A DNA stretch of 64,000 nt from Gilvimarinus agarilyticus. Its GTDB lineage: Bacteria; Pseudomonadota; Gammaproteobacteria; Pseudomonadales; Cellvibrionaceae. Location: NCBI RefSeq assembly GCF_000832015.1, contig NZ_JXCJ01000001.1, positions 1,544,649 through 1,608,648 on the forward strand, written 5' to 3'. A program made the position numbers and the translations under genes. Positions 57,056-64,000 of the stretch are shown here, piece by piece. Position 1 is the first letter of the stretch. Each line of letters opens with the position of its first letter. Below the pieces are notes generated by a model, which searched no databases, was not told the origin of the DNA, and saw only the letters and a list, made by a program, of their open reading frames with translations.

Positions 57056-57132
57056 GCACTCGTAGCTCAGCTGGATAGAGTACTCGGCTACGAACCGAGC
57101 GGTCGGAGGTTCGAATCCTCCCGAGTGCGCCA
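57056..57132 (+). tRNA. tRNA-Arg (ACG), integration target
   Basis: A 77-nt tRNA with GCACTCG/CGAGTGC acceptor stem, CTCGG-CTACGAA-CCGAG anticodon arm (ACG) and encoded CCA. The integrase gene starts 188 bp downstream in the same direction, so the tRNA 3' half is the likely attachment site. Confidence 0.96.
57110..57132 (+). other. Presumed attL core in the tRNA-Arg 3' end
   Basis: P4-type integrases recombine at the 3' end of tRNA genes and the element restores the tRNA. No second copy of this sequence was found to the right within the window, so the exact core is not defined and attR must lie beyond the edge. Confidence 0.4.
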
Positions 57133-57163
57133 TATTGAAGTCTGATTCAGTCCTGAATCGTCC

Positions 57164-57223: not shown

Positions 57224-57296
57224 TACCCCCTTATCCAGAGTGTCCTGGGGGTATTTCTGGGGGTATGTCATATCACCTCCGGATTCTTGTACCCCC
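57224..57296. promoter_or_regulatory. Candidate integrase arm-type sites (TACCCCC repeats)
   Basis: Four copies of a heptamer: TACCCCC at 57224-57230 and 57290-57296, and GGGGGTA at 57247-57253 and 57259-57265. The inner two sit in a ten-base direct repeat CTGGGGGTAT with a 12-bp period. They lie between attL and int, where tyrosine integrases usually have arm sites. Confidence 0.5.
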
Positions 57297-57319
57297 AAAC
57301 GGGGTGGAGGCGATACTGT

Positions 57320-58504
57320 ATGGCACTGACGGACAAAAAGATCAAAGCGGCGGCGCCACAATCCAAAGCCTACAAGCTCTCAGATGCGGGCGGTTTATAT
57401 CTGGATATTCGCCCGAACGGTTCAAAGTACTGGCGACTCAAATACCGCTTTTCGGGAAAGGAGAAGCTCTTGGCATTGGGCGTGTACCCGAAAGTCACAC
57501 TCAAGGACGCCCGTGAGAAAGCCCAGGACGCCAAGTCGATCCTTGCTGCGGGAAGCGACCCCATCGAGCAGAGAAAGGCCGCCAAAACGCACCAGAGAGC
57601 CAATCTGGATGCCACCTTCGAATCGCTGGCTTGGGCGTGGTTTGAGGTGGCTCGGCTCGATTGGTCTGAATCTCACACAGAGCGCACACAAAACCTGTTG
57701 AAGAATCACCTCTTCCCGTGGCTGGCGCAGCGCCCGGTTGGCGATATAACTCCGCCGGAGTTATTGCAGGTACTCTACCGCGCCCAGGATCGGGGGTTGC
57801 TAGAAACTGCCAAGCGCGCCAAACAAACCGCCAGCCAAGTATTCCGTTACGCGATTCGCCACGGCAAATTGCTCAGCGATCCAAGCCGGGACCTCGCCGG
57901 TGCGCTTAGGGCACCTAAAGCCAAGCACTTTGCCTCGATTACAGACCCGAAAGGTGTCCGTCAGCTGTTACAGGCTATTGATGTCTATCAAGGCACTCCG
58001 GCGGTTAAGGCCGCTTTGCAGCTCTCGGCTTTGCTATTTCAGCGTCCAGGCGAGATGCGGCAAATGAAATGGGAACAGGTCGACTGGGAAGCCAGTGAGT
58101 GGCGCTATACAGTCACCAAAACCAATGTGGAGCATATTGTTCCACTCCCTGCCCAGGCAGTCGACATCCTCCGGTCGCTGGAGCCCTATACCCAGCGCAG
58201 CCCTTATGTTTTCCCGTCAGCCAGAACCGCAGCCAGGCCAATGTCTGAGAATGCTGTGCGGGTGGCTCTCAGAAGCATGGGGTACACCAATGACCAAATG
58301 ACTGCCCATGGATTCCGGGCTATGGCCAGGACTTTGCTGGATGAGGCGCTGGGGTTTCCGCCGGAGTGGATAGAGCACCAGCTAGCCCATGCGGTAAAGG
58401 ATCCTTTGGGCCGTGCATACAACCGAACCAAACATTTGCCGCAGAGAAAGGAGATGATGCAAAAGTGGGCTGGCTATCTGGATGAATTGAGGGAGTGCTC
58501 ATGA
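57320..58504 (+). CDS. int: Tyrosine recombinase/integrase, P4 type (DUF4102)
   Basis: A 394-residue site-specific recombinase. The N-terminal DUF4102 arm-binding domain (about 1-90) has LTDKKIKAAAPQ and DAGGLYLDIRPNGSKYW; a SAM-like core-binding domain follows (about 95-180), then the catalytic domain. Active-site residues are visible: Arg in LFQRPGEMRQMKWEQ, HGFRAMART, HQLAH and Tyr in GRAYNRTKH. ATG at 57320 has GGAGG upstream. It lies directly beside tRNA-Arg and marks the left end of the island. The next gene overlaps its stop (ATGA). Confidence 0.95.
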   Translation: MALTDKKIKAAAPQSKAYKLSDAGGLYLDIRPNGSKYWRLKYRFSGKEKLLALGVYPKVTLKDAREKAQDAKSILAAGSDPIEQRKAAKTHQRANLDATFESLAWAWFEVARLDWSESHTERTQNLLKNHLFPWLAQRPVGDITPPELLQVLYRAQDRGLLETAKRAKQTASQVFRYAIRHGKLLSDPSRDLAGALRAPKAKHFASITDPKGVRQLLQAIDVYQGTPAVKAALQLSALLFQRPGEMRQMKWEQVDWEASEWRYTVTKTNVEHIVPLPAQAVDILRSLEPYTQRSPYVFPSARTAARPMSENAVRVALRSMGYTNDQMTAHGFRAMARTLLDEALGFPPEWIEHQLAHAVKDPLGRAYNRTKHLPQRKEMMQKWAGYLDELRECS

Positions 58505-59416: not shown

Positions 59417-59629
59417 ATGTCTAATGCAACAAACGCATTTCCATCGATCAGCTTTTATCGCCTTCCCCAAGTGCTCGAAATTATCCCTGTAGGCAAGTCC
59501 ACGTGGTGGGCTGGAGTCAAATCCGGCAGGTTTCCAAAGCCAGTTAAACTTGGTCCGCGTACAACGGCATGGAAAGCAACGGATATTGCTGCTCTAGCCC
59601 AGAGCTTTTCATATCACAACGAAAACTGA
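59417..59629 (+). CDS. alpA: AlpA-family phage/island regulator
   Basis: A 70-residue MerR-like helix-turn-helix protein. FYRLPQVLEIIPVGKSTWWAGVKSGRFPKPVKLGP (seen in overlapping parts) is the AlpA pattern: a short HTH followed by the FPKPVKLG wing. AlpA-type proteins activate integrase or excision functions in P4-like elements. GAGGAG precedes the ATG. It probably binds the inverted repeats upstream. The following gene starts 14 bp after its stop. Confidence 0.88.
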   Translation: MSNATNAFPSISFYRLPQVLEIIPVGKSTWWAGVKSGRFPKPVKLGPRTTAWKATDIAALAQSFSYHNEN

Positions 59630-59643
59630 ACGGTTTTTCCACA

Positions 59644-60435
59644 ATGGTAGCCTTTCAGTCCGTTCTGCAGCGAGCAGACCATGTAGAGATTAGGGATGGA
59701 AAGTTATCTATCACACCACGAAATGGGGCCATAGTGCCGCCGGATTGGTTCAAAAAACATGTTGATAGCCTTGTGCTGCAAATAGCCAATAGGCTCAACT
59801 TGGAGCCAATGAAGTATGTGGATTACTCCACTGGCATTTATGGCAAACGATTCTCGGGGTTGACGTTGCAGTTCGAGTTGCTGGAGGGCATTGAACAACG
59901 CTATGTTATTTTTAACGTCGAGCTAAATCGCCAGCGGAAGGGACCAAATGGAACAGGGGGAGAGAGGTATCCGGGCAAGCAATTTGCGGTTGGAAGAAGA
60001 AGCCTGTTTTATCGGTTCTGGAGTCATACCAAACTGAAACATCCCCAAAGCGTAACTGTTTACCACGATTATATGGGGAATCTGAAAAAGCTGTATTTTG
60101 TTGCCGAAAATCGTAGTGATGGCCGACTCGAGGCTGGTACTCTGCGCCCGCTCAATGCTTCATTTAATACGATTCTGCGAGCGTTTTACCCAGATAACAT
60201 ACGGACATTACCCGAATTACACCCGGATAAGTCCCAGATAAGTAATCCGGACAAGAGTTTCCCGCAAGCCCAGGTGTCACAAGGCGCAGAGCCACAATCA
60301 ACTACGTGTAAATATAACTACGAAACAAGTAATCAAGGAAGCGCGGGTACAAGGGGAATGAATACATCCCCTATTGCTACCCATTGCCCTCAGAATCAAC
60401 AGGTGGAGGAATGGCTAGAAAATTATGAAGGTTAG
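59644..60435 (+). CDS. Hypothetical mobile-element protein, 263 aa
   Basis: The ATG at 59644 is used because the frame upstream overlaps alpA. The protein is basic and begins MVAFQSVLQRADHVEIRDGK; the core (about 55-190) contains GKRFSGLTLQFELLEGIEQ, FYRFWSHTKLKHPQSVTVYHDYMG and LKKLYFVAENR. The C-terminal 70 residues are low-complexity and polar. I recognise the HDYMGNLK-type core as recurring in integrase-linked islands, but no function is established. It may be a replication or DNA-binding protein. Confidence 0.68.
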   Translation: MVAFQSVLQRADHVEIRDGKLSITPRNGAIVPPDWFKKHVDSLVLQIANRLNLEPMKYVDYSTGIYGKRFSGLTLQFELLEGIEQRYVIFNVELNRQRKGPNGTGGERYPGKQFAVGRRSLFYRFWSHTKLKHPQSVTVYHDYMGNLKKLYFVAENRSDGRLEAGTLRPLNASFNTILRAFYPDNIRTLPELHPDKSQISNPDKSFPQAQVSQGAEPQSTTCKYNYETSNQGSAGTRGMNTSPIATHCPQNQQVEEWLENYEG

Positions 60436-60520
60436 TGTTGACGACATGTCTGTTGGCATTCAGAGATGTAATCGCAAAAAAACATTTTTCCCTAATGATT
60501 TCGATAGTGCGGAGGATGCT

Positions 60521-61093
60521 ATGAGCAGAGGACATACTTTGAATGGACGCAACAGTATTGATATTCGCTATCTGAGACGTGAAGGCTTATTGCGACCGGG
60601 GGCTGTTGGCACACTACGCTGGAGTATTGGTGGTCGAGAGTGTGGCTCAGTTAGCTACAAAATAGATGACAAACAGATATTGGTATCTTATCGGTATAAC
60701 CATCCTGATAAAGGTTGGGTGGCTAGAATCCTTCCTATTATGTTTGAGGCCACTTCCTGTCACTATGGAGGCGAAAGGCTGTGGTTTAGCTGCCCAAGCT
60801 GTAACCGTCGAGTGGGTATTCTGTTTGATTGCGGCTCCCTGTTTATATGTAGGCATTGTTGTCGACTTCCTTATGTCACACAAAACGAAAATCAGGCATA
60901 TCGGCTAATACGAAAAAAGCACAAATTAGGGCAACGGATATTCGCCGATTATCATCGAGGAAGTGGCTCTATTAAAACCAAAGGCATGCACTGGAAAACT
61001 TTTGAGCGCCTACATCGACAATATCAGAATTTGGAACAGTGTTGGCTGCAGAGCTTAGATGACTTTCTACAAAAGCATAAGTGGCTTGATTAA
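60521..61093 (+). CDS. Mobile-element zinc-ribbon protein of unknown function
   Basis: A 190-residue protein from ATG 60521, chosen because GGAGG lies 5 nt upstream and because relatives start MSRG...; the frame is open from 60425. The N-terminus (IDIRYLRREGLLRPGAVGTL) and middle (LVSYRYNHPDKGW) are followed by a zinc ribbon: CPSCNRRVGILFDCGSLFICRHC, in which four Cys are metal ligands. The C-terminus has KGMHWKTFERLHRQY. This architecture recurs in genomic islands next to integrases; its role is unknown. Confidence 0.75.
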   Translation: MSRGHTLNGRNSIDIRYLRREGLLRPGAVGTLRWSIGGRECGSVSYKIDDKQILVSYRYNHPDKGWVARILPIMFEATSCHYGGERLWFSCPSCNRRVGILFDCGSLFICRHCCRLPYVTQNENQAYRLIRKKHKLGQRIFADYHRGSGSIKTKGMHWKTFERLHRQYQNLEQCWLQSLDDFLQKHKWLD

Positions 61094-61304
61094 ACGTTTA
61101 TCTAAACCGGACAAATCAGGACATTTTGGAGCAATAGAATCAGTAATGATGGTTGAGATTTCGGGAGCAGTATTATTGAGTCCGTATGAGTTGTTGATTT
61201 TCAATACCGATAATGTATCAAAGGGGGCCATGATAATACTTTATGACGCTTCCCTCAGGAACTACTTCTGGCGTTGGTAGGCGGGGGTTCTTTCCTGTAC
61301 GCGA

Positions 61305-62381
61305 CTACTCTCTAAGGCGATCCGGGTTCGCTCTATGTGCCGGCCTCCGAGCGCTCTCCTTGCTCTGCCGCCAGGCTCGGTCAATATAAATATTCCAGCC
61401 CTCAATATGCTCATGGTCTACAAACGTCATGCCTGACCAATCTCTTTCGCTGACCAATATCTTGGCTAGATATGGTAGGCGCTGCTCTTTTTCGCAAGCG
61501 TCGGCGCAAAGGGTTTTCCATGCTGGGATTACCATCAGCTCAGTTTGCACGCCGTTATTGATTTCCCCGCCCACATGACTGGCATTGTAAGGCGGCTTTG
61601 GTGAATCACACCCGCAGCGCAACTCCATATTGGGAGCGCCTACCGCAAGCTGGCGCTTGAGCATTTCATACCAAAATACATAACCGCCCTCTTCAGCGCA
61701 GACTGATCTAACCTGGTAAGTATCAACAAGGGCAACCAATCTCTCGACAAGCACAGGTGGCATTTTTATATAGGGTTTTGGCGCATGTAAGTAGACCCTG
61801 CGTTCAATATGCCGTTCAAGTTGTTGGGGGTGCCGGTTTTCATTCATCAACCTGATAGCAGCCTGAATCAAAGGGTCGGGGTTTTGTAGTGTTCGGTTTT
61901 GTACGGATTTCAACCGAGTAAATAAGCCATTCAGGTATTCCATCCAAAAAGAAGAATAATCGCGAGAAAGCTGCCACGACCCGTGCAGGTTGGTATCAGG
62001 GCTGGGCTCCAGTGGATACATTCGCTCGAAACTTGAAAAAACGATTCTTTTTATTGGCTTTTTATCGGCTATCCCTAATTCCCAGCGACGACTCCCGAAA
62101 CGATCCAATCTACTCTGCAGCTCTTGCTGAAGCGCAGTATCTGCAGGGTCAAATTCAAGGTAGACATACGCCAACAGCTCGCCGGGCCGGGTAATGGACA
62201 ACAACTCATACACACGCATTCCCAAGGACACATCGTTTACTAGTCGCGCAAGCGCATCAGCCTGAACTTCAATTTTCCAAGGCATTAGCGCACTGCCCGA
62301 GGTATGGCTGAAAGTAGATACCCAATGCCGCCGGGCAAATACCTCATAGTCCTCTCTTTCTAACAGCTTGTTCTCGTTCAT
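61305..62381 (-). CDS. Unrecognised 358-aa partner of the sirtuin
   Basis: No family is recognised. The start ATG overlaps the sir2 stop (ATGA), so the two are translationally coupled. The N-terminal half contains EVFARRHWVSTFSHTSG and LARLVNDVSLGMRVYELL, and YVYLEFDPAD; the C-terminal half has a Cys-bearing RCGCDSPKPPYNAS and DWSGMTFVDHEHIEGW. There is no signal peptide or membrane segment. The arrangement suggests a protein that works with the sirtuin, as substrate, activator or antitoxin; this is inferred only from coupling. 211 bp separate it from the convergent zinc-ribbon gene and hold no convincing gene. Confidence 0.72.
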   Translation of the reverse strand: MNENKLLEREDYEVFARRHWVSTFSHTSGSALMPWKIEVQADALARLVNDVSLGMRVYELLSITRPGELLAYVYLEFDPADTALQQELQSRLDRFGSRRWELGIADKKPIKRIVFSSFERMYPLEPSPDTNLHGSWQLSRDYSSFWMEYLNGLFTRLKSVQNRTLQNPDPLIQAAIRLMNENRHPQQLERHIERRVYLHAPKPYIKMPPVLVERLVALVDTYQVRSVCAEEGGYVFWYEMLKRQLAVGAPNMELRCGCDSPKPPYNASHVGGEINNGVQTELMVIPAWKTLCADACEKEQRLPYLAKILVSERDWSGMTFVDHEHIEGWNIYIDRAWRQSKESARRPAHRANPDRLRE

Positions 62382-63229
62382 GCTTGGCCCTGCAGTTGGT
62401 CTGTATTAATTTCAGGGCTCGAAGTTGCGTCACCCATCTCCAATAGATCAATTGCCTTTTCAAGCGCAAGTAGCCCTCTCAGGGCAGTCATAGGCAAACC
62501 GATATGAGGCGGCGTTATAGCGTGATCCTGCGGGTTAATACGCACAATCGGAAGCTCCAGGCTTGCGGCATAGCGGCGCACACTGGGGATGGTAATACCT
62601 GCCCCTAGCTCAATCACTACCGGATTGCTTACACCAGTCAACCAGCTTTCAAACGCTTCGTACTTCTTCTCGGTCCGATCGTTAATACAACCCCAGTCGT
62701 TAAACATCAACACATTGGGCCGAGCCAATTCGCCACAATGCGGGCATAGCGGTGTGGCGAATTGATCAAGTGCGCCTTCCAGCGGCCATACAGCCTGCTG
62801 GCAGGGCACAACGCACTGCAAGTAGGAGAGCGAGCCATGGCACTCGTTAATGCGCTCCTCGGCGAAGCCAGCGCGCTGGAAGTGACTATCGACATTGCTG
62901 GTGTACACAAAGCACCCATGCGCTTTGCTTTCGCACCATCGCTTAAGGATGTTAAAGCCAGCATGGGGTTTGGTTTGACGGTAGAGACTGATGCGATGGC
63001 TGTAAAACTGCCATGCCAAGGCCGGGCTCTCCATAAAAGCAGATGGATTGGCAATATCCTCAAACCGGATGCCCTCGGATCGTAAGGCAGGGTAAGCCTT
63101 CCAAAAGCCGGCAGCACCACGGAAATCCGGCAGGCCTGAGTCAACACCCATCCCTGCACCAGCACAGATCACCAGGCTGTCTGCATCTACGATGCGCTGG
63201 GCCGCTAGGGTGATTAGCCGATCAGACAT
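62378..63229 (-). CDS. SIR2-family NAD-dependent protein (zinc sirtuin)
   Basis: A 283-residue sirtuin. NAD-binding GAGMGVDSGLPDFRG is at about 24-38, the TSNVD motif (equivalent of TQNID) is at 110-114, and the catalytic His is H131 in NECHGS. The zinc ligands C139, C143, C162 and C165 are all present. It therefore looks active, as a deacylase or an NAD hydrolase. It lies between an McrC-like gene 76 bp upstream and an overlapping unknown gene, on a genomic island. Defence-associated sirtuins (Thoeris, DSR, SIR2-APAZ) deplete NAD during phage infection; whether this shorter zinc form does so is unknown. Confidence 0.9.
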   Translation of the reverse strand: MSDRLITLAAQRIVDADSLVICAGAGMGVDSGLPDFRGAAGFWKAYPALRSEGIRFEDIANPSAFMESPALAWQFYSHRISLYRQTKPHAGFNILKRWCESKAHGCFVYTSNVDSHFQRAGFAEERINECHGSLSYLQCVVPCQQAVWPLEGALDQFATPLCPHCGELARPNVLMFNDWGCINDRTEKKYEAFESWLTGVSNPVVIELGAGITIPSVRRYAASLELPIVRINPQDHAITPPHIGLPMTALRGLLALEKAIDLLEMGDATSSPEINTDQLQGQA

Positions 63230-63305
63230 GGTCGGATGCCTCTACTGGTTGGCGTTTTATCCTACATCAGCTTCGGAAATCCACCAAGGCCATATCAGGA
63301 TTTGG

Positions 63306-64000
63306 CTAAAACTTAAACGACAATTGCAAGTGGGCAGTAGGTTTTAGCAAATCAATACAATGAATATCCAGTTTTGCGCTATGACTACCCAATAGCTGTA
63401 ACGCATAAATTTCACTGAGACCTGCTTGACTGGGATAGGCGAGTGCTACCTGATGGATATGGTAGCGATTCGCGTAGGAGGAAAGCTGATACAAGTCTGC
63501 CTGGCTGACACCCAGTTTGGCATCTGGGCCATTCAGTAATTTCCATTTGGCATCAATAATCAGGTGGACCTTGCCATTACGGTCGATGAGGCTGATGTCT
63601 GGCCTTGTCTGGAATACCTTGCGGTCTACGTCTTCCCGATATGCCAGATAGCGCCTGGGGGCTTGCTCCCTCAAGGACAGTCCCGCTTTTCGAGCCAATG
63701 GGCGCAAGCTGGCCGCCAGCCAGCGCTCAAATAACAGGTTCATGTCAAATAGTATAGATAGCAGGCTATGCTTCCCCGCCGTTACATCCGGGTTTTCGGC
63801 ATCAATAAACAATCTGCACCAAGCCAGAATATCGGCATAGCGTTGGTTGGCTCGATCGAGTGTTAGGCGATCCAATGACTGGCGGTCTATGCGCTGATCA
63901 CTGATGTCATCATGCTGCATTAGTAACTCAGTCACGGCCTTTTTACTGCGATCCGAACGGCATTTGGGGAGCAAAAGGCGCAGCGTGAACTTGACCGCTT
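63306..64000 (-). CDS. mcrC: McrC-like 5-methylcytosine restriction subunit (5' end outside window)
   Basis: The frame is open through the right edge, so 230 C-terminal residues are visible. They include the McrC signature LLSILFDMNLLFERWLA and a PD-(D/E)xK nuclease core: Asp in RPDISLID and DAK in LIIDAKWKLL. McrC is the nuclease partner of the GTPase McrB, which cuts between methylated sites; mcrB would be expected just beyond the edge. A TTG at 63974 begins a long frame but is not the true start. Its neighbour is the sirtuin on the same strand. Confidence 0.87.
   Translation of the reverse strand, partial: AVKFTLRLLLPKCRSDRSKKAVTELLMQHDDISDQRIDRQSLDRLTLDRANQRYADILAWCRLFIDAENPDVTAGKHSLLSILFDMNLLFERWLAASLRPLARKAGLSLREQAPRRYLAYREDVDRKVFQTRPDISLIDRNGKVHLIIDAKWKLLNGPDAKLGVSQADLYQLSSYANRYHIHQVALAYPSQAGLSEIYALQLLGSHSAKLDIHCIDLLKPTAHLQLSFKF

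Follow-up and report, generated by a model that had tools for sequence, protein, structure and literature searches.

The stretch analysed here (the window) comprises 64,000 nt of the Gilvimarinus agarilyticus genome (4.19 Mb) and spans positions 1544649-1608648 on a contig of 4.08 Mb. At its right-hand end, three minus-strand genes encode a McrC nuclease (63306-64000 in the window; whole gene 63306-64547, 413 aa), a zinc sirtuin (62378-63229, 283 aa) and a 358-aa protein (61305-62381), all within an island of ~28 kb located at a tRNA-Arg gene and closed on the right by a copy of the tRNA 3' end. The three frames are free of internal stops; mcrC and the sirtuin gene are 76 bp apart, while the genes for the sirtuin and the 358-aa protein overlap by 4 nt. 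A sequence-only reading of this locus had proposed the trio as a candidate composite defence operon on an integrative element. Its placement of the genes proved correct, and mcrB, which it had thought might precede mcrC, was found directly upstream upon rightward extension of the sequence. Because mcrB and five further same-strand genes lie upstream of mcrC, the trio represents the tail of a nine-gene run, encoding, in order, a YprA/DruE-like helicase, an SNF2 helicase, a PglX-like methylase, an SMC-like ATPase, a UvrD-like helicase, McrB, McrC, the sirtuin and the 358-aa protein, with intergenic distances of -55 to +76 bp.

The first three genes of the run (positions beyond the window are given as window equivalents; all on the minus strand) were identified, based on their sequence matches, as an ARMADA type I system, which is defined by YprA, BrxHII-like and PglX-like genes in that order (Bell et al. 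2025 preprint, PMC12458937, in its sections on type I). The YprA-like helicase (79491-84710, 1739 aa) matched the PADLOC model DruE (5.1e-104) and carries the MZB domain (9.3e-12) that corresponds to the DUF1998/MZB zinc domain of ARMADA I YprA proteins, with a weak C-terminal match to DUF559 (5.9e-4; 20.1 bits, the cut-off being 20.6) and the motif RPDF...IDGPHH in the region where ARMADA I YprA proteins carry a Vsr-type PD-(D/E)xK nuclease. The SNF2 helicase (76672-79545, 957 aa) was matched by the PADLOC models DpdE (5.7e-212), DrmD (3.2e-89) and BrxHII (3e-62), consistent with the BrxHII/RapA-like SNF2 protein of ARMADA I. The third gene encodes an N6-type methylase (71963-76636, 1557 aa), the first 877 residues of which matched DrmMI (1.9e-76) and PglX (5.7e-13) in PADLOC, the whole protein matching BREX PglX (1.1e-11) and containing the motifs DPACGSG and NPPW, as expected of the PglX-like component.

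These genes are followed by those for the SMC/DUF2326-like ATPase (69945-71945, i.e. L002 15945-17945; 666 aa), which matched LmuB (1e-12), and the UvrD-like helicase (67204-69885, 893 aa), which matched UvrD_C_2 (5.4e-12) and GajB (2.2e-10). McrB (64556-67213) matched the NCBIfam McrB model (5.1e-35) and contains GPPGTGKT at 448 and NTAD at 715, while McrC matched Pfam McrBC (6.3e-73) and contains PD at 316 followed by DAK; the pair thereby possesses the McrB P-loop and NxxD motif and the McrC PD...(D/E)xK motif of type IV McrBC systems, which bears out the earlier assignment of an McrC-like subunit. P-loops and DExH boxes are present in the proteins of the run. ARMADA type II (SNF2-methylase-YprA, followed by a RelE-GajB fusion) was rejected, as YprA comes first here and the UvrD-like gene follows the SMC gene; DISARM class 1, with separate drmB and drmC, was likewise rejected, none of the nine genes being best matched by DrmB or DrmC among the PADLOC matches listed.

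The YprA-SNF2-methylase-SMC block was also observed in four other loci, one in genome G015 (L145/L146) and three on plasmids (L141, L142 and L143), and McrBC, the sirtuin and the 358-aa protein were not found in the stretches read of these loci. The SMC/DUF2326-like gene follows the methylase gene in the window and in four of five other loci with an SMC relative (the fifth, L144, matched SMC only), and probably recurs as the fourth gene of ARMADA I systems. A Croceicoccus plasmid (L151 4426-29889) carries ARMADA I followed by a UvrD relative and an HNH gene, with McrB/McrC ~6-10 kb upstream, and represents an independent ARMADA I with the module set of the window (UvrD relative, McrBC) in a different arrangement. 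On a Raoultella plasmid (L153 9995-21933), a UvrD relative (38% identical to that of the window) occurs in an SNF2-DUF4391-UvrD-methyltransferase-helicase run and looks to be situated inside a type III restriction-modification (R-M) operon.

The sirtuin matched Pfam SIR2 (4.2e-21) and displays the features of an apparently intact zinc sirtuin, as the sequence-only reading had recognised, namely GAG..DSG..DFR, N-x-D, the catalytic H131-G132 and two cysteine pairs (Cys139/143/162/165). In an alignment of the window sirtuin with those from 43 of 93 loci (every second locus, four of those left out), D30-S31-G32, D35-F36-R37, T110-S111-N112-V113-D114, H131-G132, C139, C143, C162, C165, E207, G209-A210-G211 and R218 were invariant in all 44 rows. 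In each of these rows, the GTS loop is replaced by GAG (residues 209-211) and TQN by TSN, unlike in the rows for CobB and the deacylases, and most members carry a GAGxx-(I/V)-P type loop at the GTS position, with HG retained. Outside this alignment, the L012 sirtuin lacks some of the cysteines and that of genome G213 lacks the DSG..DFR motif. A tree of 37 chosen rows placed the subfamily apart from Escherichia coli CobB, two deacylases and three phage sirtuins (support 100/99, with long-branch warnings), the phage sirtuins also being devoid of the four subfamily cysteines.

The predicted structure of the sirtuin (predicted local distance difference test, pLDDT, 93.2) was closest among solved structures to SirTM (Z 24.0/23.9), tied with 1ici (23.1), which we take to be the Sir2 homologue Sir2-Af1; in a profile search against the PDB, 1ici led (3.2e-30), followed by SIRT5 (4.3e-27) and SirTM 5a3a (2.1e-24). 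Judged on sequence, the sirtuin is assigned to a distinct zinc-bearing subfamily that retains the catalytic HG, with either deacylase or ADP-ribosyltransferase activity as its probable chemistry, sequence alone not settling which. No other SIR2 match (E 0.001) occurs in the genome, and a second CobB-like gene was not detected there. PHROG 2162 (Sir2) matched it at 5.5e-49, and none of the PADLOC defence SIR2 models did so at E 0.01. Kinship with anti-phage SIR2 enzymes that deplete nicotinamide adenine dinucleotide (NAD), which the sequence-only reading had suggested, is not borne out by this result and the separate placement of the zinc subfamily in the tree, and NAD depletion by this sirtuin appears unsupported.

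Elsewhere, a Sphaerotilus plasmid (L009 4670-15153) encodes a WYL regulator, an AAA protein, a subfamily sirtuin, a MavL-type macrodomain protein, a phosphatase and MoxR/VWA proteins next to BREX genes, and subfamily sirtuins occur near cpYpsA SLOG genes in L006, L043 and L083. The macrodomain and phosphatase neighbours in L009, together with the SLOG neighbours, provide hints of ADP-ribose chemistry. One L009 neighbour is also 358 aa long; it is MavL-like and shows no similarity to the 358-aa protein of the window, the equal length being coincidental.

The 358-aa protein did not match any entry in Pfam, NCBIfam, PHROGs, PADLOC or the PDB sequences, in agreement with its earlier description as unrecognised. 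Two regions were distinguished by us (residues about 33-200 and 205-345), the second of which also occurs alone. An AlphaFold model built from a three-row alignment gave a mean pLDDT of 38.7 and no usable fold. Relatives were absent from 72,556 plasmid records, from phages and viral contigs, from genome contigs in a single-sequence pattern scan, from 368 other genomes of the class in a single-sequence search and from 397 other genomes of a phylum sample in a profile search; the single-sequence absences carry little weight, as that search also missed G213, a member of its own sample.

To assess recurrence of the sirtuin-358 pair, 113 sirtuin loci were taken up (the best 80 of at least 387 confirmed genome-contig loci, 25 from viral contigs and 8 from plasmids), ranging in length from 0.8 to 20.8 kb, with 19 of them under 8 kb. 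Relatives of the 358-aa protein were identified in two of these, L055 and L043. In L055, both proteins are fused in a 633-aa frame, residues 1-362 of which match the 358-aa protein (4.6e-17) and the remainder of which is the sirtuin, whereas L043 encodes a 175-aa protein that matches the C-terminal half of the 358-aa protein and whose gene overlaps the sirtuin gene. Long sirtuin fusions in L046, L058, L078, L032, L075, L027 and others were rejected by eye as spurious upstream frame extensions.

A whole-genome profile search yielded five further relatives, in G403, G213, G373, G493 and G470. In G403, which belongs to the same genus as the window, the pair is encoded in the same order (sirtuin 67% and 358-aa protein 50% identical), beside an integrase 50% identical to that of the window and with no adjoining tRNA gene. 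In G213, the pair occurs in reverse order with an 8-bp overlap, and the sirtuin (L134 10256-11125) has lost the DSGLPDFR motif and carries GAD for GAG, with HG retained, so that from its sequence it is possibly an inactive partner. Two of these five finds, which were not begun from a sirtuin locus, are thus paired, although this count favours pairs because the orders searched were chosen for a sirtuin-carrying member. Apart from that of G403, the 358 relatives are diverged (17-25% identity).

McrBC and ARMADA were not found in the stretches read of the G403, L055, L043 and G213 pair loci; L043 and G403 yielded only distant SNF2 matches, with no match to YprA or the ARMADA methylase. The pair is therefore a recurrent unit that exists without McrBC or ARMADA. 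That proteins so diverged should occur fused, in either gene order and with closely overlapping genes appears better explained by a joint function than by chance. Of the three genes whose co-occurrence the sequence-only reading had proposed to score, those for the sirtuin and the 358-aa protein recur together in these loci, without McrBC in the stretches read.

In G403, L055 and L043, three of the four loci that share the pair with the window, type III R-M genes were located no more than 10 kb away from it. The G403 pair is surrounded by type III Res and Mod, AbiL/AriA-like genes, DUF4391 and an opposite-strand SNF2-HKD gene, and the L055 and L043 pairs by type III Mod and Res. Type III probes matched two of the 113 sirtuin loci, L043 and L055, and none of the 111 lacking a 358 relative, a count that covers the bases available for these loci and, of the R-M types, type III only as represented by these probes. 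L043 and L055 supplied part of these probes; G403 Mod matches both loci and G403 Res matches L055 only. McrBC matched a single sirtuin locus (L023), which is without a 358 relative.

The neighbours of subfamily sirtuins did not reveal a dominant partner, the commonest Pfam family accounting for 4 of the 68 neighbours tallied. This tally was drawn from 85 neighbours, excluding those repeated between nearly identical viral loci, an 83-aa viral frame in all four of its copies, the genes flanking the L055 fusion, the 358 half in L043 and one neighbour each of L007 and L078; 22 loci without a selected sirtuin frame contributed none. A 431-435-aa protein without a Pfam match accompanies the pair in L043 (10846-12141) and L055 (11891-13198), with a relative beside the sirtuin in L082. 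In G493, the 358 relative (L138 1410-2465) was placed by eye between a helix-turn-helix regulator and ParA/ParB candidates.

In part, the locus corresponds to published systems. ARMADA systems have been reported on integrase elements at tRNA genes, and a DISARM-like cassette often associated with canonical McrBC is described (PMC12458937), a branch already noted by Bell et al. 2024 (PMC11090510). The window shares the YprA-like, BrxHII/SNF2-like and PglX-like succession of ARMADA type I, and differs from it in that the run continues with genes for the SMC-like and UvrD-like proteins, McrB, McrC, the sirtuin and the 358-aa protein. The main text of PMC12458937 does not mention Sir2, sirtuin, SMC or DUF2326 (its supplements may list such a locus), and its sections consulted for type I do not name SMC/DUF2326-like or UvrD-like genes. 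Similarly, the window resembles the McrBC-linked DISARM-like cassette in having McrB and McrC next to YprA/SNF2/PglX genes, and adds the sirtuin and the 358-aa protein, the terms 'Sir2' and 'NAD' being absent from the main text of PMC11090510.

Class M SirTM proteins, which carry QG for HG and the loop GVGx[NT]TP (PMC4518038, in part), resemble the window sirtuin in sharing the highest fold score (tied with 1ici), a GxGxxxP-like loop in place of GTS and a partner-linked operon. Conversely, the window sirtuin keeps HG rather than QG (as in all 44 aligned rows), and no adjacent macrodomain is encoded, McrC and the 358-aa protein lacking a Pfam macrodomain at E 0.01. The SIR2 defence proteins (ThsA, DSR2, SPARSA and Sir2-HerA) are large fused effectors, whereas the window sirtuin is a stand-alone zinc sirtuin; the SIR2 fold in a defence setting is common to both, yet the PADLOC defence models do not match the window protein and its partner is no recognised ATPase or nuclease. 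Sir2-HerA is likewise a two-gene unit (PMC12948488, in part). The G403 pair adjoins a type III R-M superoperon with SNF2-DUF4391, an operon type that on the Raoultella plasmid contains the relative of the window's UvrD gene; the Raoultella stretch gave no SIR2 or 358 match, and the window has ARMADA/McrBC instead.

Among the published titles and abstracts searched, none was found to concern a sirtuin with McrBC or ARMADA. PMC9519451 and PMC12948488 hold the terms Sir2, McrBC and 'defense island' in passages that do not join them. Iyer and colleagues (PMC9503650) describe sirtuins that are linked with HerA, TIR, macro and RNA-repair genes and propose KptA-like phage sirtuins, and the sirtuin passages of that paper do not contain the sirtuin-358 pair. 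In the portions of the literature covered, the ARMADA I core and its link to McrBC are thus known already, and the sirtuin-358 pair was not found in print.

McrC, the sirtuin and the 358-aa protein are not a system of their own: McrBC belongs to one run with ARMADA I, and the pair recurs without either in the stretches read, so that the trio proposed by the sequence-only reading does not stand as a unit. We hold, with moderate confidence, that the locus is a composite restriction island to which a separable, NAD-dependent, protein-modifying sirtuin-358 pair is attached as an accessory. A restriction operon followed by an NAD-dependent and an unrecognised gene on an island had been anticipated correctly; of the two options offered for it, adjacent independent systems came nearer the truth. 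The objection it had allowed for, a pair regularly found without McrBC, applies to McrBC itself, yet a different restriction system is found at 10 kb or less from three of the four other pairs.

YprA/SNF2/PglX systems and McrBC act on DNA, and sirtuins spend NAD to modify proteins. By homology, the core, consisting of ARMADA I (the YprA-like protein with its C-terminal nuclease-like region, SNF2 and the N6-type methylase) together with the SMC-like, UvrD-like and McrBC proteins, would act on incoming DNA, with self DNA presumably marked by methylation. At the 3' end of the run, the sirtuin and its overlapping partner would constitute a separable two-gene module, in which the 358-aa protein may choose or present a target or control the sirtuin, and the sirtuin would modify that target, by deacylation or mono-ADP-ribosylation, spending one NAD molecule each time. 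The pair would accordingly supplement restriction systems as an accessory layer and would not be an agent of wholesale NAD depletion.

Several observations weigh against this interpretation. The pair is rare, being absent from all 397 other genomes of the phylum sample, and the type III association therefore rests on three loci, two of which are probe sources; around the G213 pair, no restriction genes were recognised. The loss of DSGLPDFR from the G213 sirtuin means that catalysis is not always kept. No sirtuin was found in the stretches read of G373, G493 and G470, where the G493 contig measures 4.4 kb and the G470 gene lies near a contig end. Finally, the 76-bp gap between mcrC and the sirtuin gene is the widest of the run, and co-transcription with McrBC is therefore only presumptive.

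A more specific proposal, put forward tentatively and more doubtful than the accessory reading itself, is that the pair, sometimes as one polypeptide, represents a new NAD-dependent module of two components that can join type III R-M or ARMADA/McrBC systems and that modifies proteins of the host or the phage after restriction has set in, the subfamily combining the deacylase HG with a class-M-like loop. To our knowledge, sirtuins in bacterial defence have so far mainly been recognised as NAD-consuming effectors. If the proposal is true, a zinc sirtuin with its catalytic histidine, fused or paired near restriction operons, would put NAD chemistry to a different use in immunity, as a post-translational second layer for DNA restriction. 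With its relatives fused or adjacent near other restriction systems, the pair may be an NAD-using supplement to bacterial defence that moves between such systems. The window itself offers a concrete nine-gene ARMADA I-McrBC composite in which deletions could reveal what each layer contributes.

Among the alternatives, the pair may serve the mobile element, in its maintenance, establishment or counter-defence, rather than the host. This is considered unlikely, albeit with several observations in its favour: the islands of the window and G403 have related integrases, relatives of the AlpA-like gene occur in G403, L043 and L055, the latter two loci share the 431-435-aa neighbour, and the G493 358-like gene sits beside the candidate ParA/ParB and regulator genes. 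Nevertheless, it is restriction genes, and not recognised transfer genes, that recur near the pair, and no mobile gene was recognised around that of G213. Given the AlpA-like relatives, some of the shared company may be due to kinship between the mobile elements.

Comparably improbable is an ordinary regulatory or metabolic protein deacylase with the 358-aa protein as its substrate or regulator, its defence setting being incidental. The conserved HG and zinc cysteines agree with such a role, as does the lack of a dominant neighbour family, and the sirtuin could stand in for CobB, since it is the only SIR2 match in the genome. Against this, the pair is rare and tied to restriction loci, and GAG for GTS and TSN for TQN throughout the alignment set it apart from CobB and the deacylases.

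Integration of McrBC, the sirtuin and the 358-aa protein, with or without ARMADA, into one defence system with an NAD-depleting second line is judged less probable still. The shared strand and short gaps would suit it, as would the finding of no promoter-like sites in 61000-63500 (mean of 3.0 in shuffled sequences). However, the pair occurs without McrBC/ARMADA in the stretches read of all four other pair loci, ARMADA I occurs without the pair in four other loci and on the Croceicoccus plasmid, the defence SIR2 models did not match the sirtuin and, of the 113 sirtuin loci, a single one had McrBC nearby, without a 358 relative. Repair of RNA ends, as proposed for the KptA-like phage sirtuins (PMC9503650, in part), is very improbable, as the three phage sirtuins group apart and lack the four cysteines and no RNA-repair family was found by Pfam among the nine proteins scanned, despite the PHROG 2162 match, the phage GAP32 sirtuin, which adjoins a Nudix gene and has an RNA ligase nearby, and the one KptA-family protein among the 68 tallied neighbours.

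As for the remaining island features, the genes of which are on the plus strand, the integration site is a tRNA-Arg (ACG) gene predicted by ARAGORN (57056-57132), and the attachment (att) copy at its 3' end (57110-57135) is repeated at window-equivalent 84944-84968 (L003 10944-10968). The two copies agree in 23 of 26 columns of a local alignment (score 35, the next best in sampled L003 stretches scoring 22), which includes a 1-base gap. The island integrase (57287-58504) matched a PHROG integrase (2.9e-68) and is listed with a TTG start, the true start possibly lying downstream; together with the att copies, it substantiates the integrative element. An AlpA-type excisionase/regulator gene (59417-59629; PHROG 5.9e-5) and a gene encoding a protein with cysteine pairs (60425-61093) follow, the latter with relatives in L043 and L049, such that the islands carrying AlpA-like (G403, L043 and L055) and Cys-pair relatives may be related elements. 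The chromosomal gene directly beyond the right att copy is, from our reading of the open reading frames, a candidate rlmJ.

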